64,000 nucleotides of DNA from Bartonella sp. M0177 (GTDB taxonomy: Bacteria; Pseudomonadota; Alphaproteobacteria; Rhizobiales; Rhizobiaceae): assembly GCF_016102285.1 (NCBI RefSeq), contig NZ_JACFOY010000001.1, positions 2,046,001-2,110,000 of the forward strand, given 5' to 3'. A program made the translations under genes and the position numbers. Position 1 is the stretch's first letter. Each line of letters begins with the position of its first letter. Positions 974 to 36,268 of this stretch are shown here, piece after piece. The notes below the pieces were generated by a model, which saw nothing but the letters and a program-made list of their open reading frames with translations, was not told where the DNA came from and made no database searches.

Positions 974-1918
974 AAATAACCCCTTTTGATGCAGCTCCTG
1001 CACCGAAAAAACATTCTACCCCCCACCGCTACAAACGGCTTTTCCGCCAATTGACCATATTGACGAAATTTTTCCCATCTGCGCGCCCAAACTCCACAAT
1101 TCAAGAATCATAGAACGTTTTAATGAGTTAACAAATTTTTGCAAGATATGGTGAATTTTTAGTTAACAACAAAATTAATACGAAATATCAATTTGTTAAA
1201 AAGTTTTTCGCTTTATTTACAGTCATTCTAAACTAAAATTGTGATTCACTTTCTGTTACAATCCCCATATCCCTGAACATGTAGGTGAAAATTTTTCTTT
1301 AAACATTTAATCGGCTATCTATCTTTGTTTTGCAACCCGATCTGTTCACATTTTCGTATGTTAACGAGTTATATCGCACACAATAAATAATTATTTTAGT
1401 TGTAAAATATATTATATAAATTTGAATTATTAATTATGAACAGTATTATTTATATTTATTTTATAATAACTTTCGTTTTTTAACTTTTTTATTTTTATAT
1501 TATAAATTATGTTTCTATAATATCAATTTTTCAACTAATTCGTGAAATGATAACTCGTATTTACATTGATTATTTATTTTACAGTCGCCTAAAGAGCTTT
1601 AATATGAAAATTTCATGAATGAAAATAACGATTGCCGACTTTGCTTCTGGCTGTTCATGAAGCGAGCTTAAGGGAGGATACGTTACAAAATGCTATGTTT
1701 CTTCCTGTCCTAAAAAGACCATTATGTCATTTTGTTATAACATGGGTTTATATGTTTCGCCCCTGAAGTCATCTTTTATCCTGATTAATCCCCTCTGTTC
1801 TTAGAGACAAAAGGCGAAAATGAATAAAAAGCGCCGCATCAGTTCGCTTGCGTGAATCAATGCGGTATAATCACCCTAAAATCAGACAATTGAAACGTTA
1901 TAGTCCGCTTCAAATTCA
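974..1918. other. Long AT-rich intergenic block without a recognisable gene
   Basis: About 945 bases with no convincing reading frame. The part from about 1290 to 1620 is extremely AT-rich, with long runs of A/T and short palindromic TTAATTATGAA-type stretches. A purine-rich GGGAGGATACG followed by a seven-codon frame occurs near 1672-1713, but it is too short to call. The block lies upstream of the MotA-like gene, so it should hold that gene's promoter. I see no specific operator. Confidence 0.6.
1831..1866 (-). terminator. Possible hairpin downstream of the octad-repeat gene
   Basis: CCGCAT and ATGCGG arms enclose a smaller TTC/GAA pairing just past the stop of the octad-repeat gene. There is no strong T-tract on the minus strand, so this is a weak terminator candidate. 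Confidence 0.25.
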
Positions 1919-2646: not shown

Positions 2647-5556
2647 CTAGTGGGTATTTTTCTCGTTGAATTTATCAAAGAGTTCCTGGTTTTGTGGACC
2701 TTTGTTCAGAACAAACAAGGCTGTTCTACCATCATTGAAAGTGGCCGGGAAACCGAACACTACCGCATGTCCGAGAAAATTTTCGTTATAGTCTTTATCA
2801 TCGGGAACGAACCGTAAAGACGCTATGAAATTATTCTCGAAAAGATTGGCAACAGTTGTTGAGGCCTGACTATTGAGGATATTGGTTTTGTCGCCAAAAT
2901 AAATGCCGCGAACACCGACAACCGAACTTCTATCCACGCCTTCGAATTGGGTAAAAGACAAATCGATGAGATGCGTCGCATCGAGGTTTTCACGATAATT
3001 TTTACGAATGCTCATTCGCACGCCCATTTGGCCATCCGTTGTTGTGAAATCTGCGACGAGAGCGGTTTCGTCATAAGGATTTTCCGCACTATGAGGCGGC
3101 CTGAGCGTCCATGCCACTGCCCCCTCCAATTTGCGCTCTATGCCGTTTTTGTCTTTCATCAACATACTGGCATCAGCGCGTTTTCTTGTCCGGATTTGCG
3201 CATCTTGAGGATTGACACCATTCACGCCTTTTGTTTTCGGCGGTTCCAACATTGCTTGTTGATAAGGACTTTGAACACCATTCGGATTGACAGCCGCCGA
3301 CGGCAAATCAACGTCTTTTCTTGTTTTCTCGAGCGGGCGGGATGACATGTCAGAACCTGAAGCTTTTGAAAGTGTTTTGCCGACTTCAGGATTTGCAACG
3401 TCATGATCTGCATCGGCCAAGCTAAGCGCTTGCGCCGCTTGGTTATCCGAAGCTGAAGAATTGATGGCCGAAGTAGCCGACAAATCGAAAGTCCGGCTAT
3501 CACCACCAATATTTACGGATGAGAAAACCGGTACATTGCCCCGCCAGAAATAATAGACCCCGCTCGATAATACACACGCAGCCAGAATACCGGCAGCAAA
3601 ACTCCCTTTGCCCCTGATATTTTCGCGTATCGCATGCGATAGAGCTTTGTAAGTCGGTTGTCTCCAGAACCTTTTTTGGCGGCGGGCATCAAAAGACAAG
3701 TCCTTCGGAAAAAGATCCTGTTCGAATTGCTTGGACTGCGTTTGACCCAACGCTTTCGATTGCGACCGGGTTTCTGACGGAGCCTTGCGGTTCGAGTTTT
3801 CGTCCGATGTGGCTGTGTTATTCGTCTGTTGCTCGAAGAGATCGGCGTCCCGCTTGTCATATTTGACAATAAAATCCGGAATTGGCGGTACATTGTCCAG
3901 CTCATCCCTGTTATTTTCAGGGAAACTCTGTCTTGTCTCCTCGTCAGGAATTTTGCTCGCAAATTCTATCTCGTTTAAAGCAAAAAGATTTCCGTTATCG
4001 AAAACGGTTTGTGGATATGTTGTCCGGTTGCGATCGGTGTTACTTCCAACACCATTGAAGAAAACATTTTTTGCGTCATTTTTCAAAGGAGCGACAAATA
4101 TTTTCTGTTCCGGAGATCTGCCGTTCATGCCGGTAGCGGAGGCAGCAGTGTTTGATAATCCTCTCCCTGACGGCGCCGATATTATCGGCCGCGGCAGAGG
4201 TGAGGCAGTAACCACGGTTTCTCTTTTGAACAAACGCCGCTCCAATTCCTTCATTTGCTCATCCACCGATATTTTCCGGCCTGCCGCAGGATCGGGCTGA
4301 TTTGACACGTTGAATTGTTCCACCGCGACCGTTTCATCAAGAAAATAAATGTCGGGGGTGGCAGCGTAACCGCCAACATTGCCATATCCGGCTTGTTGAG
4401 CTTGTTGACCGGATGGCGCGCGCTTGCCTTCATTCTTCTTAACGCCGGATGTTGCTTGATAGGACTGTGACCGAGCAGCATTTTCCCACGGCCTTTCAGG
4501 CTGTCTTTTTGAAAACGCCCCATCCGGTAGGAACGATCTTGCAGCGTTCATCGGCGCCTCACCATTCCCCATTGACTGTCTGTGCCCGTCACGACCTGTT
4601 TGAACACCGGCTTGAGGAAACCGGTTTATATTATTGACCGAAGGTCTGTTACCACGCTCACCATTCAATGGAAAAAATTGTCCCCCTTGGATTGCGGCCT
4701 GACGGTTTGCGGTTGGGGCGTTGCCGGTATTAAGTGAAGACTGTCTAAAACCATTCGTGATCGAACCGGAAAGACTATAATAAGGCCTATTTTCTTTTAG
4801 GAAATTTTGCTGCCATGGCATATTTTGCGGGAGTTCGCCTTGCGAAATTTGCTGTGCTCCGGCGTCGGAAAATAGAGCATTATTGCGGGCATTAACCGAT
4901 TGTAAATTCGCCTGCCGGCCCAGAGAGGGGGTTACTTTTCTTTCTCTACCTTCGATAAATGCTTCGATTTCATTATCATCTTCTGCATATAAATTCCGTT
5001 CACGGGACAAATCATTATTATTGAGAGCTGCCGATTGATTACTGTCGCTTTGACGTGAAGCTCTGCGGGCGGCAAAATCGATCAAATGCGGATTATCGGT
5101 TAAGCCTTGTGCGCCATTTGCCGCTGCGTTACGGTCTTTGAAATTGAAAAGGCCGATAACATCGGTCATTGACAGTTCATCGTTTTTGAACGACCAATAT
5201 CTGAACATATTTTGGCTGGAAGCCAATTGCCGCAAGCGGCCGTGATCAACTGCCACCTCGCGTTTTGTACCGAAATAATCCGGTAAATATGCCTGATAGG
5301 CGAAATGGCAGGGAACCCCATTTTCCTCCAACACGAAATATTCCGGCCGTAGAAGATAAGAAGCCTCGACCTCGCATATCGCAGCCTCCAGCCTCAACAT
5401 ATATGAATGCTGGACAATATCGGGCGCGTTCATTTCATTCAGCTTCGATTTGATAGCCAAACGCGTTTTTTCATAAATAAGCTGCCGACCGTCCGAATTC
5501 GGACGCGATTTTTGTCGTTCAATCGAATGCCTGAGCAGCTTTGGAATGTTGATCAT
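2647..5556 (-). CDS. Single-pass membrane protein with Gln/Asn-rich middle, unknown function
   Basis: 969 residues. The N-terminal ~130 residues are a charged, folded-looking domain (IPKLLRHSIERQK, later RQLIYEKTRLAIKSKLNE). About 150-640 is low-complexity, rich in Gln, Asn, Ser, Arg and Pro. A single membrane segment lies near 648-670 (FAAGILAACVLSSGVYYFW). After a polar linker, the last ~190 residues (from RTRKRADASMLMKDKNG) form a second domain ending in TALFVLNKG. From memory, the N- and C-terminal domains resemble a widespread uncharacterised Rhizobiales membrane-protein family whose members are usually much shorter. The long disordered middle is then the unusual part. Topology is probably N-in, C-periplasmic. 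The start has no strong ribosome-binding site. Function unknown; any link to the neighbouring secretion operon is by position only. Confidence 0.75.
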   Translation of the reverse strand: MINIPKLLRHSIERQKSRPNSDGRQLIYEKTRLAIKSKLNEMNAPDIVQHSYMLRLEAAICEVEASYLLRPEYFVLEENGVPCHFAYQAYLPDYFGTKREVAVDHGRLRQLASSQNMFRYWSFKNDELSMTDVIGLFNFKDRNAAANGAQGLTDNPHLIDFAARRASRQSDSNQSAALNNNDLSRERNLYAEDDNEIEAFIEGRERKVTPSLGRQANLQSVNARNNALFSDAGAQQISQGELPQNMPWQQNFLKENRPYYSLSGSITNGFRQSSLNTGNAPTANRQAAIQGGQFFPLNGERGNRPSVNNINRFPQAGVQTGRDGHRQSMGNGEAPMNAARSFLPDGAFSKRQPERPWENAARSQSYQATSGVKKNEGKRAPSGQQAQQAGYGNVGGYAATPDIYFLDETVAVEQFNVSNQPDPAAGRKISVDEQMKELERRLFKRETVVTASPLPRPIISAPSGRGLSNTAASATGMNGRSPEQKIFVAPLKNDAKNVFFNGVGSNTDRNRTTYPQTVFDNGNLFALNEIEFASKIPDEETRQSFPENNRDELDNVPPIPDFIVKYDKRDADLFEQQTNNTATSDENSNRKAPSETRSQSKALGQTQSKQFEQDLFPKDLSFDARRQKRFWRQPTYKALSHAIRENIRGKGSFAAGILAACVLSSGVYYFWRGNVPVFSSVNIGGDSRTFDLSATSAINSSASDNQAAQALSLADADHDVANPEVGKTLSKASGSDMSSRPLEKTRKDVDLPSAAVNPNGVQSPYQQAMLEPPKTKGVNGVNPQDAQIRTRKRADASMLMKDKNGIERKLEGAVAWTLRPPHSAENPYDETALVADFTTTDGQMGVRMSIRKNYRENLDATHLIDLSFTQFEGVDRSSVVGVRGIYFGDKTNILNSQASTTVANLFENNFIASLRFVPDDKDYNENFLGHAVVFGFPATFNDGRTALFVLNKGPQNQELFDKFNEKNTH

Positions 5557-5803: not shown

Positions 5804-6973
5804 TCACCGTTCCCGCAACGCTTCTTTTGCGCGATTGAGCGGCTTTATCAAATAATCCATTACGGTTTTTTGACCGGTACTGATTTCAGCAGTCGCAACC
5901 ATTCCCGGAATAATCTGATGGCGTTTTCCGTCCTTGGTTTCGAGATAGCTATGATCGGTCAGAATATAGGCCCGATAATAATAAATCCGCTTGTCGACAT
6001 CATCTTCGATTGAATCGGGCGAAACCATCTGCACATGACCGGGAAGCGAACCATAAATTGCTGAATCATAGGCAGTGATTTTGACATTTGCCGGCTGGTC
6101 TTTGTGAATGAAAGCGATATCGCGCGGGTTCAATTTTGCCTCTATGAGAAGCTGGTCGCCCAAAGGCACAATTTCCATCAATGTTCCGCCAGGGGCAACA
6201 ACCCCGCCAATCGTTGTAACGCGGATATCTTTGACAATTCCATTGGTCGGAGAACGGATGACTGTGCGCGTCAACTGGTCGGCCAATCCTTCTCTGGTTT
6301 TCAATAGCGGCTCGAGATCGGCCATTGTTTTGGTATAATCACCGCGTAAAGCAACAAAATATTCATTTTTTGTCGCCGCAAGTTTTGATGACAATTCGGC
6401 CGCATTCTGCTGCAATTTCAACACCTCGACCTCGCTTGCAGCACCTGTTTTCAGCAAAGGTTTGGCAATTTCCACTTCGTCTTGCGCAAGTTTCAACTGC
6501 TCCGTCAGATTAAGTACATTTTCCTTGAAGGCCTGACGATTGGTGAAAAAAAGCTCGGTTTCGCGGTCAATAACATCTTTTTTATCGCGAATTTCCTCGG
6601 GATAATTGACACTGTTCTGATAATTCATTTCGGCAAAAAGACGTGCAGCCCGCGCCTGAAGGGCAACGATCTTGGCTAGAGTTTCATCGACATTGGACTT
6701 TGCCTTTGCCGGATCAAGAGCAGCAAGAACCTGCCCTTCGCGAACCTCGTCGCCCTCTCTCACCGAAAGTTCGGCAAGAATGCCGCCCTCGAGATTCTGG
6801 ATAATCTGGCCTTTGGAAGCGGGCATCACTTTGCCCTCGCCGATTGCGACTTCATTCAAAACGGCGAAATAGGACCAGATCATGAAAATGACAATCATCG
6901 CGATGATGATCCAAAGGATCAATCTTGCTCTCTCATTGATACCGTGAACTTTTACCAGTGAATCGACATTCAT
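5804..6973 (-). CDS. HlyD-family periplasmic adaptor of type I secretion system
   Basis: 389 residues, the last gene of the adhesin operon; its ATG is two bases after the stop of the ABC exporter gene. A short cytoplasmic N-terminus is followed by one membrane anchor at about 17-40 (LILWIIIAMIVIFMIW). Then comes the barrel-sandwich half-motif IIQNLEGGILAELSVREGDEV, a long coiled-coil hairpin around 100-210, the second half-motif (VIRSPTNGIVKDI) and a C-terminal beta domain ending in PGMVATAEISTGQKTVMDYL. This is the complete layout of HlyD/LapC adaptors, of normal length. It should bridge the inner-membrane exporter and the TolC-like duct to move the giant adhesin out in one step. Confidence 0.95.
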   Translation of the reverse strand: MNVDSLVKVHGINERARLILWIIIAMIVIFMIWSYFAVLNEVAIGEGKVMPASKGQIIQNLEGGILAELSVREGDEVREGQVLAALDPAKAKSNVDETLAKIVALQARAARLFAEMNYQNSVNYPEEIRDKKDVIDRETELFFTNRQAFKENVLNLTEQLKLAQDEVEIAKPLLKTGAASEVEVLKLQQNAAELSSKLAATKNEYFVALRGDYTKTMADLEPLLKTREGLADQLTRTVIRSPTNGIVKDIRVTTIGGVVAPGGTLMEIVPLGDQLLIEAKLNPRDIAFIHKDQPANVKITAYDSAIYGSLPGHVQMVSPDSIEDDVDKRIYYYRAYILTDHSYLETKDGKRHQIIPGMVATAEISTGQKTVMDYLIKPLNRAKEALRER

Positions 6974-6975
6974 CG

Positions 6976-9495
6976 TCAGCCCCTCGCCTGATTATCATTG
7001 GGAGCACTTGCGGTAGCAAAAGCGGTTCGGTCGAGACCGAGCATCTCGTCCTTCGAGCCGTCTCTGACAATGCGGCCATTGTCGATAACGATGATGCGGT
7101 CAACGAGCTTCAAAACCGGATAGCGGTGGGTTGCCACAATGAATGTCTTATTGCCAATCCAGGATTTCATGCGTTCAAGAACTGCAACCTCTGTTGCTTC
7201 ATCAAGCGAAGCAGTCGGTTCGTCAAGCAACATAATATGTGGCGAGCGTAGAAATAAACGGGCAAGCATCAATGTCTGTTTTTGCCCGCCAGAGAGGCCA
7301 ACCCCGCTTTCGCGTAATTTGAGATCAAGCCCGTGCGGCTGGTTGAGCAACAACTGGTCGGCACAGGAAAGATGCATAGCTTTCAAAATATCTTCGTCTG
7401 TTGCCAAAGGATTGGCCGCCAGAAGATTATCCCGCAATGAGCCGTAAAACAGACTGGACTCCTGAAACATTGCCCCGACATCCCGCCTTATATCGGCAAT
7501 GTCGATCATCCCGATCGGGGTATCATCAAGGAGAACACGTCCCTGAACAGATGCCGAAAGGCCGGCAAAGAGGCGAAGAAGCGTTGATTTTCCAGCCCCC
7601 ACACGCCCGAGGATCGCTATTTTTTCTCCCGGTTTTATATGAAGACGCGGTATGATCAGAGCCGGTTTTTCTTGCGGCCCGTAAAGATAGACCAAATCCT
7701 GCAAGTCGTATTTTCCCCGCAAGACAGGTTTATGATAATAGTCTTTGTCGCTGTCGTGATCGACCGGCAAAGTGAGTAAACCATCAAGCCCTTTTTTCCC
7801 CACACGGGCATTTTGTAATTTGCTCAAAATTGCCGGTATCTGTGAAAGAGGTGCAATTGTCCGGCTTGTGAGAATGGAACAGGCAAGAACCGCACCGAAA
7901 GACAATTTGGCGTCGAGTATGCCGTAAACGCCCGCAATAACCACACCGACATAGGCAATTTGCTGCATCGTTTGTGAAAAATTCATCAGCATGGAAGCAA
8001 TTTCACGCTGTTTCAGGCTGATATTGCCGCTTACTTTATTGACCTCACCCCATAAACGGCGAAAACGCGGTTCTGCCTGAAGCAATTTGATATCTTCGGC
8101 ACGATAAATCGACTCCATCAAAATAGCATTGCGCATGGCGGATTCTTCCAACCCTTGATTGGAAAGTTTCGCAAGCGGGATCTGGGCAAAAATTCCAGGC
8201 AGTACAATGAAAGGAATAGCCGCAATGGGAACAAACACGACATAGCTGCCGATGAGCCAGATAATGAAGAGAAATGATACAACAAAAGGAAGGTCGATGA
8301 GCACACCCAGCGTTGTCGAAGTTAAAAGTTCCCGCATCTGGTCAAGATCGCGCAATTGCGAAATCAAGGTTCCCGGAGACCGCGGTCTTGCATCATTGCG
8401 AATATTCAAAACACGCGCGTAAAACATAGCCGACAATTTGAGATCGGCCTGTTTGCCGAAATGGTCGGTCACGGCTACACGTGTTGTCTTCAAAATGAAT
8501 TCGAGAAGCAAGGCCAAGGCCACACCGGAAGCCAGAACCCACAATGTATTGGTCGACCTTCCCGGCACAACGCGATCCCAAACCTGCATAGCAAACAAGG
8601 ATGTTCCGATTGCAAGCAAATTACCGACGAGCGAACCGAGACCCAATTGCAGAAATATCGGCCAATTGGCCACAAATAACCCTTTGAACCATGATTTTGG
8701 TTTTTTTTGCAGATATTCGTCAAGCCGGTCGTCATGGGCACTCAAATGGCGTTCGAGAACGAGAAGCTTTATCTTTTGTTTGCCATGTGTGAGCGTATCA
8801 AAAGCAATGCGTTTTCTGAAAACATTGTTGTCGATAACAAAATCGACAATACCGGATGCCCCCTCTTTGGCCGTGAGCAAACCGAGCTCGCCATCAATTT
8901 GAAGAATAGCGGGCATCAGAACCGAAGAAATTGCTGTTGGCTCGACTTCGACAAATGTTGCAGCCAAACCACAGCTAAGGGCAATATCGATAATTGTTTC
9001 GTCTTTTTGTGCACCACCACTCCATTTTGAAGCATTCCGTACAAGTTCGTTCGAAACCGGTATATTGAGTTGGCGGGCAGCAAGCAGCAGCACATCGACC
9101 CATTTCCCCATGAACAAGACACTGTTTCTGTTTTCATTATTTTTGCGGGCAGAATTTGCGGCCTTTCTTTGTTTTTGCGATGTATCGCGTTCCGCATGGG
9201 ATGGCTTCGGGCCTTTATTCCTGCCTTCATCTTTGGCTTTGAGAGCTTCGCCAGCACCATTCAATTTCTGCTGTTTTCCGGCATTTTCAGCCGATATTTT
9301 TCCGCTATTTTCGAGCGGTGTCCCATATAGTTCGCGGCGTCCGTTTTCGAGTTTGTCATTGATTGCAGCTTGCGCCGACCTTCCGTTTGCAATTGTGTTT
9401 TTCTCTTCGTCATTTTCTTCGTCGGCGGACGAAAACGCATTTGTTCCACGAGGAGTAAAAGCAAATTTACCGGTGAAATGATCGAAACTTGTCAT
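6976..9495 (-). CDS. Type I secretion ABC transporter with C39-like domain (LapB/BapB-like)
   Basis: I place the start at the ATG at 9495 (MTSFDHFTGKF, 839 residues). It has GAGAG upstream and lies ten bases past the TolC-like stop; a longer frame would run deep into that gene. Residues ~15-125 are an unusual charged, Lys/Asn/Glu-rich extension. About 129-270 is a C39-peptidase-like domain without a catalytic Cys in the expected place, as in LapB exporters that do not cleave their substrate. About 310-600 is the membrane domain. The ATPase follows: Walker A GRVGAGKST near 629, signature LSGGQKQ near 736, Walker B IMLLDEPTAS near 755, and the H-loop His. It should energise export of the 6069-residue adhesin. 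The N-terminal extension is longer than usual. Confidence 0.93.
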   Translation of the reverse strand: MTSFDHFTGKFAFTPRGTNAFSSADEENDEEKNTIANGRSAQAAINDKLENGRRELYGTPLENSGKISAENAGKQQKLNGAGEALKAKDEGRNKGPKPSHAERDTSQKQRKAANSARKNNENRNSVLFMGKWVDVLLLAARQLNIPVSNELVRNASKWSGGAQKDETIIDIALSCGLAATFVEVEPTAISSVLMPAILQIDGELGLLTAKEGASGIVDFVIDNNVFRKRIAFDTLTHGKQKIKLLVLERHLSAHDDRLDEYLQKKPKSWFKGLFVANWPIFLQLGLGSLVGNLLAIGTSLFAMQVWDRVVPGRSTNTLWVLASGVALALLLEFILKTTRVAVTDHFGKQADLKLSAMFYARVLNIRNDARPRSPGTLISQLRDLDQMRELLTSTTLGVLIDLPFVVSFLFIIWLIGSYVVFVPIAAIPFIVLPGIFAQIPLAKLSNQGLEESAMRNAILMESIYRAEDIKLLQAEPRFRRLWGEVNKVSGNISLKQREIASMLMNFSQTMQQIAYVGVVIAGVYGILDAKLSFGAVLACSILTSRTIAPLSQIPAILSKLQNARVGKKGLDGLLTLPVDHDSDKDYYHKPVLRGKYDLQDLVYLYGPQEKPALIIPRLHIKPGEKIAILGRVGAGKSTLLRLFAGLSASVQGRVLLDDTPIGMIDIADIRRDVGAMFQESSLFYGSLRDNLLAANPLATDEDILKAMHLSCADQLLLNQPHGLDLKLRESGVGLSGGQKQTLMLARLFLRSPHIMLLDEPTASLDEATEVAVLERMKSWIGNKTFIVATHRYPVLKLVDRIIVIDNGRIVRDGSKDEMLGLDRTAFATASAPNDNQARG

Positions 9496-9505
9496 GGCAA
9501 AACTC

Positions 9506-10996
9506 TCAACTATGCTCACGCAAACGACTGACCAATTGCCCCACCGCATAATAGGCTTTGATTTTTGCATAGAGGCGATCGGATAAAGCTGTAATCTGGT
9601 CACTTTCAGCAACGAACGCATCACGTTCGGCATTGATGACATCGGTTAATGGACGCTTGTTCAACGTATATTGCTGCCAATAGAGATCGCGCGAAGAAAG
9701 CGATAAATTCATCATCTGGCGGGCATTATCCATACGCTCGGTGGCTCCCCTTTCTTCCGTTTCAGCCGCACCTCTGGTTGTGCGCGATACAAGCTTTTCG
9801 TTTTCGGCTGCCTGACGGGCAGCCCGCAATTCTGCTTCGGCCGCTTCTATCTGGTATTTTTCGCGCTTTCCGGAAGAAAATTGTCCACTCAATTGCAGGC
9901 CGACAAAAGTGCTATCATTCGTCGCATTCCGCTGTCCGGTAGCGCCGGACTGGCTCACGCCGAGACTGACTGCGGGAAACCGTTCGGCCTTGGCCAAACG
10001 TAGCCGCTGTTGGGATGCTTTGACTTCCGCCTCTGCGGCAAGCACTGCCGGCGTATGGTCAATGTCGTTTTCGCCATTGCTCAGACTGTCCATAAAGCGC
10101 GTTGTTTCTGCAAGAGTTTTCACTTTTTGCGGACGGAAACCGGTAATTTGCGAAAATTTTCCGGCTGCCACATCAAAGCGCGTTGTTGCCTGTAAAAGAT
10201 CGGACTTTGCCCGTTGCATCCCGACCTCCGCCTGATTGAGATCGGAGGCATCCGACAGGCCGGCACGCACGCGTTGGCTAATCTTGTTATGGGTATCACT
10301 CAAAAGGCGTGTTTCACGTTCTGCTGCTCCGATCAATTCCTGTGCGGCAGAAAGTTCAACGAAAATATTGGCAATATTCTGAGCCACATCTTCCATTGTA
10401 CTATTCAATTGATGGGTCTGTTTTTCGTTTGTGGCCTGGGCTGCACCTATGCGACTTGACGTTCTGCCAAAATCGTAGATGAGTTGCGAAGCGCCAACAG
10501 TGCCGCGCACATTGCCGGCATCATTATTATTGTTACCGGAATTATAATAACGGTTATAACCGGGATTGAGGCTATATTGGAAGGTCGGATACCAGGCCGC
10601 CTTTTCAATGGCAATTTGCGCTTTGCTTTGCGCAACAATTGCATTTGCCCTTCCGATATCCGGATGACGGGCCAAAGCAATACCGACAGCATCTTTCATG
10701 CCTATCCGGTCAGTCGAAATTGTTGTCACAGCATCATCGGCCTTTGTCGATGATGGCACATGTGGCAAGTTCCGATTGTCGGAACCCGATTCCTTATAAC
10801 CTGTTTTTTGCGCCTTTTGATAATCGGTGAGAGGTGCTGTTCCTGCTCCCTGATGACGCACAATACGGGATTGGTGAGAACGCGGTGTCGTGCAACCGGC
10901 AACAGCAATCAACACAAAACATAAAAGAGCACTGCTTGCCAAAGCCATTTTCCGCTGCACACCGGAATGATGATCGTGATAGAGGCTAACCGGCAT
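9506..10996 (-). CDS. TolC-family outer-membrane efflux lipoprotein of the adhesin secretion system
   Basis: The preferred start is the ATG at 10996 (MPVSLYHDHH, 496 residues), preceded by AAGGGGGG. It overlaps the end of the halogenase-like gene by eleven bases, implying translational coupling. A hydrophobic stretch (LASSALLCFVLIAVAGC) ends in a lipobox-like VAGC, so the mature protein is probably lipid-anchored; a shorter start at MALASSALL is possible. The body shows two TolC-type halves of long helices, beginning GMKDAVGIALARHPDI and with LIYDFGRTSSRIGAA, and a C-terminus with PLTDVINAERDAF. Outer-membrane duct for the type I system (LapE/BapD role), directly followed by the ABC and HlyD genes. 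Confidence 0.9.
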   Translation of the reverse strand: MPVSLYHDHHSGVQRKMALASSALLCFVLIAVAGCTTPRSHQSRIVRHQGAGTAPLTDYQKAQKTGYKESGSDNRNLPHVPSSTKADDAVTTISTDRIGMKDAVGIALARHPDIGRANAIVAQSKAQIAIEKAAWYPTFQYSLNPGYNRYYNSGNNNNDAGNVRGTVGASQLIYDFGRTSSRIGAAQATNEKQTHQLNSTMEDVAQNIANIFVELSAAQELIGAAERETRLLSDTHNKISQRVRAGLSDASDLNQAEVGMQRAKSDLLQATTRFDVAAGKFSQITGFRPQKVKTLAETTRFMDSLSNGENDIDHTPAVLAAEAEVKASQQRLRLAKAERFPAVSLGVSQSGATGQRNATNDSTFVGLQLSGQFSSGKREKYQIEAAEAELRAARQAAENEKLVSRTTRGAAETEERGATERMDNARQMMNLSLSSRDLYWQQYTLNKRPLTDVINAERDAFVAESDQITALSDRLYAKIKAYYAVGQLVSRLREHS

Positions 10997-12851
10997 GAAC
11001 ACCCCCCTTTTCCTGTTCCGTTTGCGCTTGAGAAAACCGTGCATGATTGGCAAATTGGAACTGGTAACCGACCGGTTGCCGATTTTGTCCGCCCACTTCA
11101 TTTCCCTCACCCTCATGAAGCGGCTCCTGCCCGAAAGAGTGTCCGAAAACAGGCGGCAAGTTTTTCTGTGCGTTTAATTTACTTTGTGCACTTGACCCGT
11201 TTTGCGGGCTTAATTTGCTTTGTGCACACAAGTTACTTTCTGCCCCCAATTCATTTTGTGCCCCTAATTCATTTTGTGCATTGCCGCGTGTTAAAACGCC
11301 CCGTCCATAATGTTCCATTTTGTCGCGGATATTGGGAGGAAGTCCCTCAAGCTCGTTCAAAGCAGCGGCTTTACTCACAATTCCAAGTGAAGACGCAATA
11401 AAAAGCCAATCCAGCACATGATATAAAGGAGGAAAACCGGCGCCATAATTTTCAAAATCAATGACGCGCGGCAAGCGTTCGGCAAAACAGGCAAGCATTT
11501 CCTGATAGTGTGAAGAACGCCGTGCCGATGCAGCATCGCGCCAGAACTCTGTGTCGCGTCGCCTGCCATCGAAATGCATCCTTAAAAAATCGGCATTGGC
11601 TTTGAAAGCCCCGTCATTGGATTTGTTGTAATCTTCAATAATATGCTCGCCAATAACGCCGTTACATTCCAATAATATGCGTTCCAGTCGGGCAATTTGG
11701 TGAATTGTGGTTTCTGTAGCACTTGCTTGCAAAGGGCCGAGATATCCCGAGGAAACACCGATGGCGATAGTATTTCCCATCCATGCTTTTTCAAAATTTC
11801 CCGGATCGAATGTAATGACCGGCCGTGCTGCGACAGGTGATCCGAAAAGCAATTCCACCTCTCTTTTCGCGCGTAACCAGTCGGTATGATTATTTGAAAA
11901 AACATGAATTCCGCTATAATTGTCGCTTAACGGTATCCGGCAGATATATCCGGCCGGAGTTGCAAAATATTCGCTAACAAGGTCAACTCTAGCCCCGTTA
12001 TTTGCAAGCCTGAAATCAATTGCGCTATTGGGGAGCAGACTATCGGAAGAAGAATGCCATCTTCCATTCAGTTTTTGCCCGACGAGCAAATGTCTGAGAC
12101 CTGAAGCGTCGATAACGAAATCGACATTGAAAATATCTCCGCCAGAAAGTTTGAGGGCATCTACATGACCATCCGGAGAAATCTCGAAGTCGATGACTTT
12201 TCTGGCGAATGCACGGATCTTCCGTTCCATGCCGATTTTTTTGAGATAGTCGACAACCAGACGACAATCAAAATGCAAGGTAGGTTCCACACCGCTTCTA
12301 TGTGTATTGAAAACCGCATTGGCTTCAAGCCGGTTAGCCTTCTGTTCAATCAATGCGAAAGCCGGAAAAATTGTTTCGAGAGGAACGCCCAAAGCAATGG
12401 CAGTGGCAAGATAAGGCCAAAAACCGTAGAGGGAAAAATCAAGTTCTTCAAGATGATCGTTCATGCCCGGATGAAGATTGTAGAAAATGTCGCTCGCACT
12501 GCCATTGCGGAAACCGCGAAAGGCATTGCCCATCTTGAATGTCGGCTTTGTCGTTTGGACAAAATGCTGAAGATCAATATTCAAGCGACGAACCATTGCG
12601 ATAAAATGGTGAAGCCCGCCTTCGCCGCCTTTGAAACAGGGTAAATTCGGGTCCTCAAAAACGGCAATATCAACATTGGCACTGAATACGCGCCGCAACA
12701 TCAGAGCGGAGAGCCAGCCGGATAGCCCCCCACCGATTATTGCAATTTTTTTCACGCGTCTCACATCCAGCACTTTTTCTCTCCACGCTATAAAGCGATT
12801 GTTGAAGACCCGAGCTTGGTTTCGGAAAAGATGGCGAAGTTGATCCGCCAT
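10986..12851 (-). CDS. Flavin-dependent halogenase-like oxidoreductase within the adhesin operon
   Basis: About 621 residues; ATG at 12851 (a TTG lies one codon earlier), nine bases after the adhesin stop. A ~38-residue extension precedes the FAD-binding GGGLSGWLSALML. Family landmarks align by eye with RebH/PrnA: GGEGGLHHF for the GVGEATIP loop, PTFK for the segment with the catalytic Lys (K79), and DASGLRHLL for DCSGFRGLL. Two hallmarks are altered. The WxWxIP motif reads YICRIP, and the PLEST segment with the catalytic Glu and chloride site reads PLQAS. I therefore call it halogenase-like; true halogenation is doubtful. The C-terminal tail (about 520-565) is seven degenerate hexapeptides such as NAQNEL and GAQNEL, then a disordered His/Gln-rich end. 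The position suggests adhesin modification, but that is inference. Confidence 0.8.
   Translation of the reverse strand: MADQLRHLFRNQARVFNNRFIAWREKVLDVRRVKKIAIIGGGLSGWLSALMLRRVFSANVDIAVFEDPNLPCFKGGEGGLHHFIAMVRRLNIDLQHFVQTTKPTFKMGNAFRGFRNGSASDIFYNLHPGMNDHLEELDFSLYGFWPYLATAIALGVPLETIFPAFALIEQKANRLEANAVFNTHRSGVEPTLHFDCRLVVDYLKKIGMERKIRAFARKVIDFEISPDGHVDALKLSGGDIFNVDFVIDASGLRHLLVGQKLNGRWHSSSDSLLPNSAIDFRLANNGARVDLVSEYFATPAGYICRIPLSDNYSGIHVFSNNHTDWLRAKREVELLFGSPVAARPVITFDPGNFEKAWMGNTIAIGVSSGYLGPLQASATETTIHQIARLERILLECNGVIGEHIIEDYNKSNDGAFKANADFLRMHFDGRRRDTEFWRDAASARRSSHYQEMLACFAERLPRVIDFENYGAGFPPLYHVLDWLFIASSLGIVSKAAALNELEGLPPNIRDKMEHYGRGVLTRGNAQNELGAQNELGAESNLCAQSKLSPQNGSSAQSKLNAQKNLPPVFGHSFGQEPLHEGEGNEVGGQNRQPVGYQFQFANHARFSQAQTEQEKGGVHAG
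11160..11290 (-). repeat. 18-bp in-frame tandem repeat in the halogenase-like gene tail
   Basis: Seven degenerate 18-base units encode hexapeptides NAQNEL, GAQNEL, GAESNL, CAQSKL, SPQNGS, SAQSKL and NAQKNL. The first two copies are almost identical at DNA level, with ATTCATTTTGTGC repeated on the plus strand. Likely a slippage-prone linker. Confidence 0.75.
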
Positions 12852-12860
12852 CAATGGGGA

Positions 12861-13620
12861 TCATCCGATGATGATCTGGTGGTTTGCCAACAATGTTTCG
12901 AGATCGGTATCAACACCATTCAAAGTCAGAAGGTCGGTCGACTGGAAGGCGTTCCCCTTGCCATCACGGTCAATACTCAAAATCGTATTGCCGTTTTCGA
13001 CACGGGTTGAAAGGAAGTCCTTGATATTATCACCCCAGTCGATCTGGGCTTTGCCGTTGTTGTCAAAATGGGCAGCGCCATCGGCATCGGCACGGTAGCC
13101 TTGCAACAGGTCGGCGACATCAATGCGGTCGGCATCGGCATCAATCTTGGTTTTGTCGGCATCGATATAGGTACCAACCTTGAAGCCATAGACTGTGTCA
13201 TGGCCGTTGCCACCGGTTGCATCATCCTGCTGGAGGAGGCGATAAAGCAGAAGATCATGACCACCCGCTTCAAGGTGATAGGTGTCGTCACCACCACGAC
13301 CATCAAAGAAATTGTCGCCTTTACTACCGGTGAAGGTATCGTTGAATTTACTGCCGTAAATACCTTCAATGTCATTGAACTTGGCGTTGTTGAAGCCCGT
13401 CGACTGATAGCCGCTATTACTCAAATCAACGGTGACACCGACAGTCGATTTGCCAAAATCTACAATGTCTTCACCACCACTTGCCTGCCAATATTTTTCA
13501 CCGGCATCATTCCGCCAGCCACCACCACCGGAATAGCTCTGGCTACCGGCTTCGGCGGTGAAGACATCATTATAACCGGTGCCGACGAGTCCCGGACGAT
13601 AGCCCTGGGTTGCCGGATCA
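12861..13620 (-). other. C-terminal RTX-like and type I secretion signal region of the adhesin
   Basis: Encodes about the last 250 residues: a Gly/Asp-rich stretch with GSKFNDTFTGSKGD and GRGGDDTYH, then DRIDVADLLQGY and LLTLNGVDTDLETLLANHQ. This is the pattern of the T1SS C-terminal target domain of the VC_A0849 subclass. It marks the adhesin as the substrate of the adjacent exporter. Confidence 0.85.
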
Positions 13621-16600
13621 TTGTTTCCCGCACCGGTTGTCACCGTGTCGCCATCCTTATTGGCGTTCAGAATATAGGCATGGTCGGCTTCAACAGCTTT
13701 AAGACCTGTCCACGAGGTGTTGACATTTTCTATCGTATTGTCTTTGCCGTAACCGTTTGCATCTTTCGTATGGGTGTGGGCAATACCGCCAATATCGTTC
13801 GATTGCCCTTCGGTATTGCGCAAGACAACAACCGAATAGGTTTCATTTTCTTTCAAGCCATAGAAATGGACAAGGCCGGTATTATCGGACGCACCAATGC
13901 CTCCTTGCGCATTGATAACCTGCACGGCAACCAGATTACCGGCAGAGTCAAAAAGCTGGACGGTATTGTTATAGAACACATTGGCACCATCCTTGTCGGT
14001 GATGCGAAGATGCAACGACGTTCCATAACCGACCTTGTTTTTGTTCGACAAGATAAGCGATGAATGGGCGTTGTCACGCTGCATGGTGACATCAAGCGCG
14101 CCATCCCAATCATAGTCTACAAGCCCGATACCATAAATGAAGTTAATGCCACTGCCATCAATTGTCCTCGGGTCGACATCGCCGTTGGCACTGGAAAGAC
14201 GGCCACCCTGCGAACCGAAGATATCCCAATTATCCCATTTGACAGAACCATCAAGACCAACGCCGCCATTATGCCAGAGCTTCGTGCTAGCAGCACTCCC
14301 GCCGAAGCCAGGAACCTCCAGAATATCCATTTTGCCATCGTGATCCCAGTCGATAGCAACCGACCAGCGACCGTCAAGGTTGTCGCCCAAGCCAACAGCA
14401 TTACGCAATTGCCCGGTCCCGTCAGCTTTATTATAAAAGATCTGACTTTCCTTGTTGCCATGCCAATTGTGATGATTTTTGGCAAGGAACAGATCCATAT
14501 AACCATCACCATTATAGTCGGCCCATGTCATGGAAATGGTATTTTTATAGTTGTCAGGACCAATTGACTCATCAGTGCCATTACCGAAACTCGGCAATGA
14601 ATCGTCAAAATGCTGGTTGACTGACCAGTTGGTGCCATAAACACCGTTAACAGGGGCAGATTTGCCGCTGTTCAAGAGTGTCATCAATTGATACCAGTTG
14701 TTTGCATAGCCGGAAACGCCTGTCGTATCATTAATCCTCCCGTTACCGGCAAAATCGATCGTCCCGTTATTATCAAGGTCGATTGCCGACACATGGTGAT
14801 CGGTCATAAAATTGCTCGTGAGTGCGGACTGGTTACCGCCGAATTGCCGCCCCATACCGATAAACTGGTTACCGTTCAGGCTTGACGAAGTCGCTCCCTT
14901 GTTCAAGAAGATAGAGCCGGAATCCGCGCCGGAATCGCCCTGAATGACATCGAGATACCCGTCACCATTCATATCGAAAGTAGCAATGCCGCCGAGGTGG
15001 TTTTCAATAGAAGCCCCATTGAACATGTCGCCATATTTCACATCGACATAATTCCATTGATTGTCTCCCGTACCGACATAGGCAGCGGTTGTAAACCAGG
15101 AATAGGAGGTTTTCGTGGACCATACATCAATGTAACCATCATGGTTGTAATCGGCCATAGTATAGGAACCGAACAAAACATTTTCCGGCCCCCATCCCCA
15201 AACATCAACCGTCCCGTTATTAATTCCTGTCTGATAATTCAAATAGTGGGCTTCGGCCTTGCCGTTACTGTTGAAAACCCAGACATTCGAATTGGAAATA
15301 ACCTGCCACTCGCCATTATTGTTGAGAGCGACAGCCTGCGTATAACTTAAATCTCCACTACCTCTTAGAGTATTGTTGTTTGAAATTCCATAATCGGGAA
15401 CATTTGCAGCGCCGGTTGTGTCAACGCGCACTTCGACATCATGCGCTTCGCCGACATAACCGGATTTCGAAACAATCGCCGTTGTGAAGATATAGCTGTG
15501 GCGGTCGGTCAAGCTGCCATCAGGCAGTTTGAAACTGAATGTACCATCCGGTTTGATCTGGCTTTTGTCGACATAGCCCAACAGCACGTGATCGCGATAA
15601 ATGCCGATTTTCGCGCCATCTTCAAGATCGGCAAGATTGCCGCTGATTTTACCCTTCAGAACGGGATTTGTAACATCGACATATTCACCATTCTGGAAGA
15701 CTTTGCCGCCTTTACCGGTAAAGCCCGTAAATTCGGAATGTTGAGTTGAGCCATCAGTATCAATAACAACAGTTTTTGCCGACTTGTCGGTTGCATCATC
15801 ATCATAAATGCCGGTACTCGAAATAACGCGCGTCTTGATGACATAAGTTCCGTCAGCAAGGGCAGGCTTGTTTCGCCAATCAAGTTCCCACTTTCCATTG
15901 GCCGAATTATAGGTAAGGTCGTACCATTGATTATTGATGAGGGCTTGAACCTTGTCGGTATCCTTTAGCGTTCCATCCACTTTGAAGCTGAAGAGGAGTG
16001 TATTATCCTGTGTTGTGAAGTCGCTGCTCTCGAACCCCGTATCGTCAGTAATACTGTCGAGTGTTGCCTTGGCGCCGGGAACCGTTTTATCGACAATAAA
16101 TGAATGCGCTTCTGATGCCGGTCCTTCATTGCCGGCAGCATCCACCGGACGGGCTGTCAGCGAGTGTGAACCATTGGCAAGCTTGGCATCGGAGTTTCTG
16201 TTACCCGCTTCCCAGAACCATGTATGATCGCTATCCACATCCACTTCGGCAATTAATTTATTATTGTCATAAATGCGCACTTTCTTCGCGTCACTTGGTG
16301 CCGTTCCGCTGAAGATCGGGCTATCATCATTGGTGTGATCATTTTGATTGACAGTAATAATGGCCGGGCCTTCTTCACCATTGGCACTATTCGGCAAAAC
16401 ATTATCCTGAACAGTCTCGCCGGTTATCTGCTCGGGCGCGGTAATGTCGACCGTAACAACATATTCGTTTGAAACGCCGCTGGTCTTTCCCTCGGCATTT
16501 TGCGAAACGGCCGTAAACTTGTGGTCATTTTCGGTGAGCATTGCTCCGGTTGTATAAGACCAGTTGCCGTTGCCATCGGCATAAACGCGGCCAAGTTCCT

Positions 16601-19600
16601 TGCCATCATCATAGATGATCACAAGGCTGTTCTTCGGTGCTGTGCCTTTAATCGTCGGGTTGGTATCGTCGGTAGTGCCATGGTCTACACGGGAGCCACC
16701 ATTTGCGACTGTACCCTGAATAAGGCCGACATCATCAGTAACCCCGGTAATGGTCGGCCGATCAGGTTCACCATTATCAATATTCAGCTTGAAATCTTGT
16801 CCGCCAAGAACAGTACCATCGGCACCTGTTGCCTCAACATAATAATTATGTTCACCGGCGGTCTGTTCCGTCAAACCGATAGACCATGTGCCATCCGAAC
16901 CGACATTGAACGGGCCGCCAACTTTCGTTTGTTTTGAAGAATCGGTATAAACGTTGACAGTCGAGCCTGCCGGTGCCGTGCCATAAAGTTCGGGCGTTGT
17001 ATCATCGGTATGGCCGCCATTGGCTATCGGGCCTTTAATCGGATCCTCATTGTCAAAAGCATAATCAACCGTTACGGTATTTCCATTATCGGCTATTGTA
17101 ATATCGGTTCCAAAACCGCGATCGCTTTCATTACCGGCCGCATCTTTTACCGTGGTGGTAAAATGATGTTTGCCTTTATCAAGCGGTGTTGTCGGTGTGA
17201 ACGACCACGAACCACTATCCGGATCAACTTTCGCCTCGCCGATTGCTTTGTCGCCATCATAAATGGTCACAACATCACCCGGTTGCGGTTTATCTAACTT
17301 GCCCGAGAAGGTGGGCGTTGTGTCGTTTGTTGTTCCGTGATCGATGTTGGCATTGGAGATCTCGCCCTTATCAGGAGTAACGTCGCTTGTAATTGTCGGA
17401 CGTCCGGGTTTATCCGGTGCAGTTGTATCCACTACGAACGGATAAGGTGCGGTTGCCGCACTCGTGTTGCCACCGGCATCTGTTGCCTGAACCCAGATAT
17501 TATGGGTCCCGTCGTCAAGTTCCCGCAAACTCGTTTCCCAATGGCCGTCATTATCGACTTTTACGGTGTCGAGCAACCTGTCCTCACCATTTACGCGGTC
17601 GTAAATTTTAACATAAGAGCCTTTTGTACCGGTTCCTTTGATAAACGGCGTATCATCGCGTGTGATCCCGTTTTGCTGGATCTGGTTATCCGGAAACAAA
17701 ACATTCGGATCATCATCATGTCCAATCTGGGTAATTGACGGGGTACCGGGCGCATGCCCGATAAGATCGAACTCGACAACATCGGATTTTATATTGCCCA
17801 CCACGCCGGCATGGTTGACCGGAACCACCCAGAAACGGTGATGTCCCGGCATCAACGGACTATCCGGTTCAACCTCCCACGAACCGTCAGACTTGATATC
17901 TGCCCTGCCGATCGGCTTGGCATTCGGGTCTGACGGGTCGCAATCATAAAGAAGCACAGAAGCAACCTTGGCAGGGTCAAGCGAACCCGCTTTGCCTTTG
18001 ACTGTCGGCCTGTTATCATCGGTGACGCCGTTATTCGCGATATTTCCTGTTTCAAGACCCTGATCGTCATAGACGTCAAAATCCTTCGAGCCGGACCAAT
18101 CAGGTCCTTCAGTTGTCAGAGACAAGCCCAAAGGTGATGATTTCGGTCCCTGATTACCGGCCTTATCCTCAAGCACAGCAACAAAATAATAATCATTATC
18201 CGGATAATGGGCTGCATCAAGATTGGCGGTGAATGTCCAATTGGTGCCATTGGGATGGACAGAACCAAGCTTGATCGGCTTGCCATTTTCGTCTTTTAGA
18301 ATATTGCCGTCTTTATCGGCGAGATAAATGACAACATAATCGCCGGACTTGGCACCCGAAACTGTTCCGTGCAATTCGGGTGTGCGATCATCGGTATAAT
18401 TTTTTTCGGTATGGCTGCTTAATTCGGCTTCAACCCCGACATTATCAATGAATTTATCAAGCGTTATCGTGCCATCCGGACCTTGATTATCGAGCGTCAT
18501 TGTTTTTTCGTCGATATCCGATGTCCGGCCGGCATTGTCGATAATGCGGGTTTTGATGCTATAATTTGTGCCATCGGCACTCGCCGGCAAAGCTGTTACC
18601 GGACGGAAGAAATACCGGTCGTTTGCTGCGTCATATTCTGTGTCGTACCACTGCCCGCCGATATTGATTTGGACTTTTTCACCATTTGCGGCATTGAGCG
18701 GATAGTTGGTCTTAATGTAGATTGTCGGCTGTGTATCGCTGGTAACATAGTCGTTGGTATCAAAACCGGTATCCTGTGAAATACCGACAATTTTCGGTTT
18801 GGTGGCAATCGTTCCGGTAAGAACCTTAAAATTCCATGCACCGGTTGGAATACCGATATTGCCAACAGCATCAACGGGCTTGGCCTGAAACGAATGGTCG
18901 CCATTTTCCAAAGCCGTATCGGGTGTAAAACTCCATGTATATTGCCCGTTATTTTCAACAACCTTGGCTTCGCCGATTTTAACGCCATGGTCATAAATAA
19001 AGACCTTGTCGATGTCCGCTGTGGCCGAACCGCTATAGGTCGGCCTGTCGTCATTCGTCATGCCATTATTGCTGATCGTACCGGTAGTTTCCGGTACGTC
19101 GTCAGTCAAGTTGACAGACTGCAAAGCATCCGGCGCAGTCAAATCGATCGTATATTTGAACTCGGATGATTTATCGCTTTCATTGCCGGCTGCATCAACA
19201 GATGTTGCCTGAAAGTGATGTTCTCCTTCCGGTAACGGGCTTTGAACCGAATATTCCCAATTGCCATTGGAATCGGCTTTCACGCTATCAACAAGATGCG
19301 TCTCGCCATTAACCGTATCGTAAATATTGACTATGCCGTTCGGTTCGGCGCCATGGCCTTTCAAAGTCGGCGTTGTATCGTCACTTGCCGCACCGGAGGC
19401 AAGATTATCCGACTGGTTCGCACCGACATCATCGCTGGCACTGACAATCTCCGGAACATGGTTATTTTGCGTGTCGACAACAAGCGTGAAGCTGTCAGAC
19501 TTCGTCGAATTATTCGGAAGCGTTGCCTCCGCAACAATCGTATGACTACCATCGTGAAGTAGCTTCTCTTTCGGCCACACAAATGTCCAGTCGCCATTGG

Positions 19601-22600
19601 AATCGGCATAGACTGTGCCGATTTCTGTTTTCACTCCACCAACATCAGTATAGATAGTGACAGTCGAATTGGCTGTTGCACGTCCATGCAATTCCGGCGT
19701 TGCATCATTGGTGAGCCCTCCGTCGGAAATCTTTCCGGTGTAATCTTCGGTGGAAACATTTTTGTCATCAACAGCGTAAAGGATGCTGACATCGACACTT
19801 GTCGGATCGATTGTCACCGATGTTGATTGGCTTTTTGCACTTTCATTTCCTGCCGCATCGGTGACCGATATTGCAAATTCGTAATCACCTTTATCAAGCG
19901 GATTTTCCGGTGTCCATGACCATTTGCCCGAGGACGGGTCGACCGTTGTCTCGCCAAGCTTGACATAGGAACCGTCGACTTTTTTGAAAATGGTAACCTT
20001 GTCTCCCACTTGCGGGTTTTGAACAGTACCGCTGAATATCGGGGTCTGGTCGGGTGTCGTTCCATTATTTTCAATCGTACCGATCTTGGGGTCCTGATCG
20101 GATTGAAGAGAAGGAATATCCGGCTGGTTTGGCGCATGATTATCATAAACAATCGGATAATTACCGGTTTTTGAACTCGGCGCACCCGTCTGGTCAACTG
20201 CTTGAACCGCAAAGTTATAATGCGTTCCAAGACCATTGGTCGAAGTATCTTTCAAGGCATAAGCGGCCGGAAGCTTGAAAGTCCATGTGCCATCCTCGCC
20301 GACAATAACCGGATTATCATCGGTATTGATTTCCTGGTCGTTTTTATAAATGTGAATGCGTGTGCCTTTGGTTCCCATACCATGAAGGGTCGGTGTCGCA
20401 TCGTCTGTCGACTGGCCTTTTTGCAGGTAAACGGATTTGCCTTCCGGATTGTTATAATCATCAATAATATTGGTGATGGATGGTGTCCCCGGAGCATGTC
20501 CGGCAAAATTGAAGTTCCATTCGACATTATCAAGCGGCGTGCGGTTTCCTGCCTGATCTACAGCAACCAGATGGAAACGGTGTTGGCCGGGGGTAATGGC
20601 TTTATTCGGAATGATTTTGAATGATCCATCCGCCTCGATAAGTCCTTCGCCGATTTTGGTGTTTCCGTCATAGAGTTCTACGATTCCACCGGCAGCCCCC
20701 GTAACAGTTCCCGCTCCCGCATGAAGTTCCGGATAATTGTCATCGGTGACGCCACCCGAATGCGGTATCACGCCCGTATCGGGTTGCTGGTCGTCTATCA
20801 ATTTTATAGAATTGGTATCGCCCCATTGAGGGCCTGTCACATCGACAGTCAAAAAGAAGTCGTTGCTTGAAGCGCCTTCATTTCCGGCAGCATCCTTGAC
20901 AACTGCAACATATTGGTAATTGCCATCGGCAAGTTCGGGAAGCTGGTACTGCCAGCTATAAGTGCCATTGCCGTTTGATGTGAGGTGAATATTGTCGGCA
21001 ACACTATGGAGATTGCCTTGGGAATCACGATAATAGAGATGAACAACATCGCCCTCATGAGCACCTTTCACCGTGCCTTTAAGAAGTGGCGTCTTGTCAT
21101 TGGTTGCCGTTCCTGACGGATAATCGCCAACATTGTTTTCGACATCGTCATGGAATGTGTCAATCGTGACCGTATAACCGTCTAACGGCGGTGTATTGTC
21201 AATTGTCAAATCCCGCGTTGTGTTCTGGCCGACATTGCCTGCCGCATCGACCACACGTGCCCTGACGTGATAGACCTGATCGGTCAGTTCATGCCCAACC
21301 GCATAATAATATTTTCCGGTTCTCTCATTATAGCTTGCTGTAAACCATGTCAGCCCGTCATCAATCGAAATTTCGACATGTTCGTTATCGGCAAGTGGCT
21401 GATTGACACGCACAAAAATCGTCGGATTTCTGTCCTGCGTTATAAGGTCGTCGTCTTTTGGACCGGTATCGTTCGACACGCTGTCGATTGTCGGTATTGC
21501 GCTTGGTGCAATTGTATCGACAATAAATTTCGAACCCTGGCAATCTGTGCCTTCATTGCCGGCACTATCCACCGGACGGGCAGTCAATGTATGTTGACCT
21601 TCAGAAAGCTTGTGGGTTTCGTCAGGTGTAAACGACCATGTCCCGTCTTCCTCGACTTTTGTTGAACCGATCAGCTTGCCATTATCATAAATATTGACAG
21701 TTTTTGCGTCCGAAGGTGCTTTTCCGGAATATTCGGGCCGATTGTCATTGGTATACTGGTCTTTTGCAAGTTTACCGACAAAATCATTTTTATCATTTTG
21801 GACATCGTCGGTCACTGAAACTGTATCATTTTTGATCGGTTCAGGCGCTGCAACATCGACAATCACGTTATAATCGGGAGAGTGCTGGCTTTCATTGCCA
21901 ACCTCGTCGACAGTGGTTGCGCTTAAATGGTGTGTTGTGTCTCCTCCAAGCGGAGAAGGTGGTGTGAAACTCCATTTTCCTTGGCCATCGGCTATGACAG
22001 AACCGATAAGCTTGCTTTCGCCTTTTTCGCCATTACTATTTTCTTCCTGATCATAGATATTGACTTTCTGATATGGCTTTGCACCACTTCCGATAATTGT
22101 CGGGGTTGTATCATCCGTGCTGCCGCCATTTACAACATCATTCTGAATAGCGCCGACGTCATCGGTTACATTATCAATCGACGGCTGTTGATTGTTCGTT
22201 ATATCAACGTCAAAATTGAAATCGGCAGTCGATTTGCCCCCTGAGGCATCCGTGGTTTCAGCATGAATGACGTAATGTCCTTCGCCGAATTTTTCACTAT
22301 CCTTGACCTGATAGGACCAATTGCCTTCACCATCGGTTCTAACCTTTGCAAGCTGATGAACCTGATTATTGGCATCGGTATATGTCAGAACAACGTCAGA
22401 GTTCGGTGTTGCTTTACCGACAATAAGCGGCGTTCTGTCATCGGTCTTACTATTGTTTGTAATGTGTGATTCAAGCGGTGCCTGATCATCAACAAGATAA
22501 TCAATGCTCACCTTGACCGTGCTTGTGTCAACCGTGATATTGGTCGCCGTCCCCTTGGCGCTTTCATTACCGGCCGCATCACTGACAGATGTCTGGAAAC

Positions 22601-34898: not shown

Positions 34899-34919
34899 CC
34901 CATATCGAGGAGATTTAAG

Positions 34920-36251: not shown

Positions 36252-36268
36252 AGCCGAAAGGACAAAAC

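Follow-up and report, generated by a model that had tools for sequence, protein, structure and literature searches.

The window analysed here, a 64,000-nucleotide stretch of the Bartonella sp. M0177 genome (contig NZ_JACFOY010000001.1, positions 2,046,001 to 2,110,000), carries an operon for a giant adhesin of a type I secretion system (T1SS) in which a homologue of flavin-dependent halogenases (FDHs) is encoded directly behind the adhesin. The genes run in the order adhesin (6069 amino acids, aa), FDH homologue, TolC-type protein, LssB-type ABC transporter, HlyD-type adaptor, 969-aa protein and MotA/ExbB-like protein, and the window genes named here read on the minus strand unless stated otherwise:

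12861 to 31070, minus strand: giant adhesin of 6069 aa with a BapA_N prefix, Big_13/Big_6 Ig-like repeats, FG-GAP near the C-terminus and a weak RTX-like end (domain scan of three pieces of the protein).
12774 to 12860, minus strand: probable 87-base intergenic stretch carrying the FDH ribosome-binding site GGAGAG (start comparison).
10986 to 12773, minus strand: FDH-fold protein, 595 aa from the probable start GTG 12773; the gene finder's open reading frame (ORF), from ATG 12851, is 621 aa (PF04820, structure model, start comparison).
9506 to 10996, minus strand: TolC-type outer-membrane protein (PF02321, 152 bits).
6976 to 9642, minus strand: T1SS permease/ATPase of the LssB type (TIGR03375, 730 bits, cutoff 693).
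5804 to 6973, minus strand: HlyD-type periplasmic adaptor (TIGR01843, 336 bits).
2647 to 5556, minus strand: 969-aa protein with one apparent membrane segment by eye (operon position).
2 to 1003, minus strand: MotA/ExbB-like protein (weak match, 20.8 bits, cutoff 22.9), truncated at the window edge; its genomic frame has 469 aa.

The ABC and HlyD proteins exceeded the TIGR03375 and TIGR01843 cutoffs, respectively, and the TolC-type protein was over the OEP cutoff and below that of TIGR01844 (174 versus 225). In the adhesin, BapA_N scored 37.7 bits (cutoff 27), Big_13 reached 8.6e-40 and 8.3e-75 in two pieces scanned, and HemolysinCabind at the C-terminal end was weak (21.0 bits versus a cutoff of 23). 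Tryptophan is densest at adhesin residues 5401–5700, with 10 per 300 residues compared with 2–7 in the other full blocks. The FDH homologue shares 90% identity across 594 residues with its counterpart in Bartonella apihabitans BBC0178, a bee-gut species.

The window protein has the FDH fold and full-length FDH homology. It matches PF04820 with 245 bits (1.7e-72) and PDB halogenases down to 5.4e-35; Foldseek and VIA-align comparisons of its AlphaFold model ranked FDHs first (2wes_A, 1.5e-34), with a Z score of 46.5 against SttH over 464 residues (rmsd 3.0). With residues numbered on the 621-aa ORF, the model (mean pLDDT 75.7, pTM 0.77, pLDDT at least 70 at 428 of 621 residues) is confident over most of approximately 34–525, the exceptions being 128–141 and 172–188 (pLDDT <50). 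The tail at 529–621 is predicted to be disordered, nearly all of it with pLDDT <50; the corresponding DNA (10986–11270) encodes short imperfect AQNELGAQ-type repeats that vary among close relatives. The FAD motif GxGxxG is kept as GGGLSG at 40–45 (within GGGLSGW), and K106 aligns with the catalytic lysine (PrnA K79) in both the PDB and the clade alignments. The catalytic glutamate (PrnA E346) is replaced by Q375 in the window copy and in loci L031, L032 and L039, and the window's WxWxIP motif reads YICRIP. A preliminary description of the window, made from its letters, had placed an FDH homologue at this operon position with its FAD-binding and Lys79-type segments retained, YICRIP for WxWxIP and glutamine for the catalytic glutamate, all of which hold. 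In PrnA, E346Q lowers the rate by approximately two orders of magnitude and K79A abolishes activity (PMC5727139).

We next compared the clade with a signature of 53 columns, each conserved in no fewer than 90% of a set of 43 other FDHs, of which 10 are cellular and 33 viral. Outgroup FDHs left out in turn, with the columns chosen anew, kept a median of 98% of the signature (minimum 88%). The window protein keeps 33 of 53 positions and the 22 clade rows keep 31–51; all but one of these rows fall at 31–45, having lost 8 or more residues in differing combinations. Losses differ by lineage: E375Q with W302Y/W304C in the window clade, G42D/G45A in L197 (beside an adhesin), G41S/G42D in the adhesin-linked L038, and K106R with G76Q/E77D in Tokpelaia. 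All pairs computed on intact cores are nevertheless under purifying selection. In the six pairs among the window, L031, L032 and L039, dN/dS of the FDH core (34–515) was 0.13–0.25, near the values for TolC (0.15–0.20) and ABC (0.14–0.23), whereas HlyD was far lower (0.01–0.02, computed without L031, whose contig ends before HlyD). Whole-ORF values in the window clade are 0.20–0.42, since the N-terminal extension and tail vary, and mostly lie above those of ABC and TolC. Twelve further pairs gave core values of 0.05–0.16, including L197/L199, which are without two FAD-motif glycines, although dS exceeded 1.2 in 5 of the 12, leaving those values unsure; a 13th pair of this set (0.185) belongs to the window clade. 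The frameshifted L176, with core values of 0.25–0.72 in its pairs, was excluded.

Among 71 Bartonella genomes, searches for FDH (profile search, E 1e-10), the LssB ABC (1e-60) and the adhesin C-terminus (1e-20) found the same 13, which are kin and so do not amount to 13 independent cases. All 14 Bartonella FDH copies sit in one run with an adhesin and its cognate ABC; the two divergent operons of genome G006 have separate FDHs. The trees of FDH, ABC and TolC within Bartonella contain the same four terminal groups (L034 and L038; L035, L036 and L175; the window clade; L037, L172, L173 and L174), the branching order of the last three being weakly supported. An uninterrupted reading frame spans the FDH core in 13 of the 14 copies. 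The remaining copy, in the conspecific G834, was dropped as a biological loss, the adhesin and 969-aa genes also being split in that assembly; stops within the matches of G014, G813, G840 and G006:C25 were likewise set aside, as coordinates place them just outside the open frames.

The pairing was followed outside Bartonella in samples of genomes drawn at family, order, class and phylum level. In the family draw of 394 genomes, 18 matched the FDH at 1e-20 or better and 10 of these at 1e-90 or better: G000, G014 and G839 (Bartonella), G963 and G869 (g438), G911, and the rhizobia G887, G1086, G974 and G910. The 22 intact copies form a single clade on a long stem with support of 100/100, in a tree built without the broken G974 and G910 copies. 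G911, whose adhesin frame spans 6202 aa and whose FDH falls inside this clade, is probably the genome of Candidatus Tokpelaia hoelldoblerii. G963, G869 and G911 each encode an FDH immediately next to a giant adhesin frame (at least 1708 aa), with the LssB ABC, 67–68% identical to that of the window, far off; in G911, two genes downstream of the FDH, there is a TolC-like gene. This layout suggests that the FDH travels with the adhesin more than with the exporter. The co-occurrence search proposed in the preliminary description ties the FDH to the adhesin beyond close relatives. Separately, the g438 tandem FDH-clade pairs (L198:8174-11247 and L200:8008-11068) lie near Tol-Pal-like genes by eye, and one tandem-pair member is without the catalytic glutamate and FAD glycines (dN/dS 0.05).

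Rhizobial clade members and more distant FDHs stand in other surroundings. The best ABC in the four rhizobia is 35–37% identical or absent; of their four orphan copies of the FDH clade (L202, L203, L204 and L205), two have nitrogenase-type genes nearby and two are broken, in one case by an IS4/5-like transposase gene. At order and class level we covered neighbourhoods of up to approximately 10 kb per side, shorter at contig ends, for 21 of 30 non-own order matches, and 20 loci covering part of 55 non-own class matches. Six-frame tblastn of 40 order and class loci plus L033 found the FDH in all; at 1e-4 neither TolC nor either end of the adhesin matched anywhere, HlyD matched only weakly in one locus (L074, 25%), and ABC only at 24–32% identity over at most 432 residues; at L040, a weak PF04820 match, nothing of the operon was found. 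In the phylum draw (299 genomes, E ≤1e-50) the best non-window match scored 207 bits, versus 528–992 for intact clade members. The alphaproteobacterial FDHs at L033, L081 and L121, which are more distant, lie near peptide-type ABC transporter genes.

Comparison of gene starts revised the spacing within the operon. In 11 of 12 non-window Bartonella loci (all but L032), a conserved position just ahead of (I/L)D(L/V)R holds TTG or GTG; GGAG precedes this codon in 11 of 11, and an in-frame stop lies within 30 codons upstream in 8 of 11. The window counterpart is GTG 12773–12771 behind GGAGAG, which would give 595 aa and an 87-base gap from the adhesin stop, and GTG 12773, not ATG 12851, is probably the true start. 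The preliminary description had placed the FDH start nine bases after the adhesin stop and reported an 11-base overlap with TolC; the overlap is exact (FDH stop TAG 10986–10988, TolC ATG 10996 behind AGGGGGG), whereas the nine-base gap holds only for ATG 12851. We dropped that gap as a sign of translational coupling, given the probable start at GTG 12773.

The slot behind the adhesin is occupied by a different enzyme in a second Ig-adhesin T1SS operon of G839 and G008, in which a TPR/GT41 glycosyltransferase is encoded between adhesin and ABC exporter (L177:6696-19901 and L178:6906-19899; L177 adds a Sel1-repeat protein between the same two genes). These genomes are near relatives and were counted as one case. 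GT41 enzymes of the HMW1C type modify adhesins: HMW1C is a cytosolic glycosyltransferase encoded beside the adhesin it modifies, and HMW1 is secreted by another route. GT41 belongs to another enzyme family than FDH; by analogy, the shared position suggests that the slot can hold adhesin-directed factors. In a third operon, a contig-cut fragment of G006 (L179), TolC and ABC come directly after a BapA_N protein, with neither FDH nor GT41.

We tentatively favour the view that the window protein is a dedicated adhesin partner of FDH ancestry that has lost halogenation in the window lineage and binds the adhesin before export. The FDH-derived protein would serve the giant T1SS adhesin from the cytosol. 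In the window lineage halogenation has most likely gone, the FDH fold is kept and FAD is probably still bound, and the protein would contact the adhesin polypeptide before export as a holdase or secretion checkpoint, whether or not some flavin chemistry remains. Four observations underlie this view: FDH homology, co-occurrence, adjacency to the adhesin where the exporter is elsewhere, and signature loss under purifying selection. The loss of catalytic residues in several adhesin-linked copies speaks against halogenation as the conserved function, and a pairing kept though the halogenating residues are often lost suggests a protein that works for the adhesin and has given up producing halogenated compounds.

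Several results weigh against this partnership. The FDH tree splits the Bartonella copies (two changes needed; a single clade in 0% of 200 bootstrap trees), although its starred branches do not exclude a single Bartonella clade, and the L034/L038 pair may have a separate FDH history. The ABC tree, unlike the FDH tree, separates the Bartonella copies from g438 and Tokpelaia, a conflict that confines co-inheritance to the terminal groups. G815 and the window are 91% identical in the adhesin C-terminus and 46% in the FDH. G813 has an extra adhesin C-terminus (L317, 96% identical to that of the window, from contamination or a second operon) without an FDH in the 1.1 kb remaining of its 3.8-kb contig. 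In g438, an adjacent FDH is missing at 6 of 8 adhesin C-termini, and an adjacent adhesin at four FDH genes, one tandem pair per genome; the four rhizobia with clade members gave no adhesin C-terminus match at 1e-10. In addition, the adhesin-operon copy L034 retains 51 of the 53 signature residues and is alone above 45, and K106 is kept in 20 of the 22 clade rows, so catalysis may persist in some copies.

The chief rival of binding is covalent modification, a possible but rather unlikely reading that the preliminary description had also proposed, in which a flavoprotein oxidises or halogenates adhesin side chains before export, for instance in the tryptophan-richer C-terminal part. The near-canonical L034 in its adhesin operon, the retained GxGxxG and K106 of the window copy, the GT41 in the same slot and the tryptophan enrichment all fit it, and FDHs that brominate tryptophan in ribosomal peptides are known (PMC10286304, PMC10858898). 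Against it stand the loss of the catalytic glutamate in the window clade, of FAD-motif glycines in L038 and L197 and of the lysine in Tokpelaia; the two GT41 cases reduce to one by kinship, and L179 has neither enzyme. A fuller version is on balance unlikely: an FDH-family flavoenzyme would modify the side chains of giant type I adhesins, with L034 as the ancestral halogenating form, the window protein as a derived oxygenase or pseudoenzyme, and FDH and GT41 exchangeable in the slot.

Two further explanations are each highly improbable. A small-molecule enzyme, making a halogenated indole or antibiotic and sharing the operon by chance, would suit the FDH ancestry, the distant relatives found in FDH gene arrays or beside peptide-type ABC transporters, and the antibiotic role mentioned for Tokpelaia in PMC5156944; yet the six operon proteins scanned include no other biosynthetic family, the adhesin co-occurs in 13 of 13 FDH-bearing Bartonella genomes, and the catalytic glutamate is lost. 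A decaying passenger gene kept only by its operon could explain the many missing signature residues, the two broken copies among four rhizobial orphans and the whole-ORF dN/dS of the window clade. The core values close to TolC and ABC once L176 is excluded, the low values in other pairs, and the open core in all Bartonella copies but that of G834, with its split neighbouring genes, speak against decay.

The preliminary description knew of no type I adhesin system with such an enzyme, but PMC5156944 (2016) reports for Ca. Tokpelaia hoelldoblerii a tryptophan halogenase gene lying directly downstream of the gene for a giant T1SS protein, an organisation that is also conserved in B. tamiae. In Tokpelaia the T1SS genes lie apart from the halogenase, next to the origin; that study left an incomplete B. 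apis dataset out of its gene-gain analysis, and its section 6 is silent on catalytic residues. The window shares with these genomes a giant Ig-repeat protein followed by a halogenase gene, and differs in belonging to a bee-type Bartonella and in carrying the glutamate-to-glutamine change and the loss of both tryptophans of WxWxIP. On that paper's evidence, the adhesin–FDH adjacency was already described in 2016 and the arrangement is not new. It was the sole relevant paper found in a literature search on halogenases with T1SS, adhesin or Bartonella, outside which most subscription journals lay. As far as that literature reaches, the new elements are the occurrence of the system in bee-type Bartonella and g438, the terminal groups common to the trees, the loss of signature residues while purifying selection persists, the near-canonical copy L034, the parallel with GT41 and the revised start.

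Other known systems resemble the window in part. RebH, PrnA, SttH, BrvH and Xcc4156 share its fold over approximately 460–480 residues (Z approximately 38–46), the FAD motif and the catalytic lysine, but the window protein has glutamine for the catalytic glutamate, YICRIP and the reduced signature. MibH (Z 38.8 among the structural matches) and SrpI show an FDH fold acting on a ribosomal peptide; their substrates are small precursor peptides, in contrast to a 6069-aa T1SS adhesin. SiiE/BapA-type adhesin systems share the BapA_N prefix, Ig-like repeats, LssB-type ABC, HlyD and TolC, but the window has an FDH-fold gene between adhesin and TolC. The weak MotA/ExbB-like gene is reminiscent of SiiB.

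Around these genes, the 969-aa protein had no Pfam or NCBIfam match at 0.001; its relatives occupy the same operon place, some aligning over only approximately 70 residues, and it evolves fast (dN/dS 0.30–0.37 in window-clade pairs without L176). Beyond the window start (L226 of G000), the gene run seems to extend through genes for a TolC-like protein, a protein of 229 aa, a second HlyD and a 2356-aa protein whose RTX match is below cutoff, up to an ABC-like frame cut by the stretch. The 229-aa protein is MotB-like, its G813 relative matching MotB_plug with 22.1 bits (below the cutoff of 24), and this run, including window positions 2–1003, could represent another type I system or an energy module like that of SPI-4. 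On the other strand, window positions 33894–36883 encode two luciferase-like monooxygenases and an FMN reductase, with GNAT and ABC transporter genes after them.

If the FDH-derived protein does modify or escort the adhesin, type I secretion would gain a new kind of accessory factor, and the FDH fold a role outside metabolism. A testable series beside adhesins would then be available in gut symbionts and their relatives, from the near-intact FDH of L034 to the copies without FAD-motif glycines in L038 and L197.

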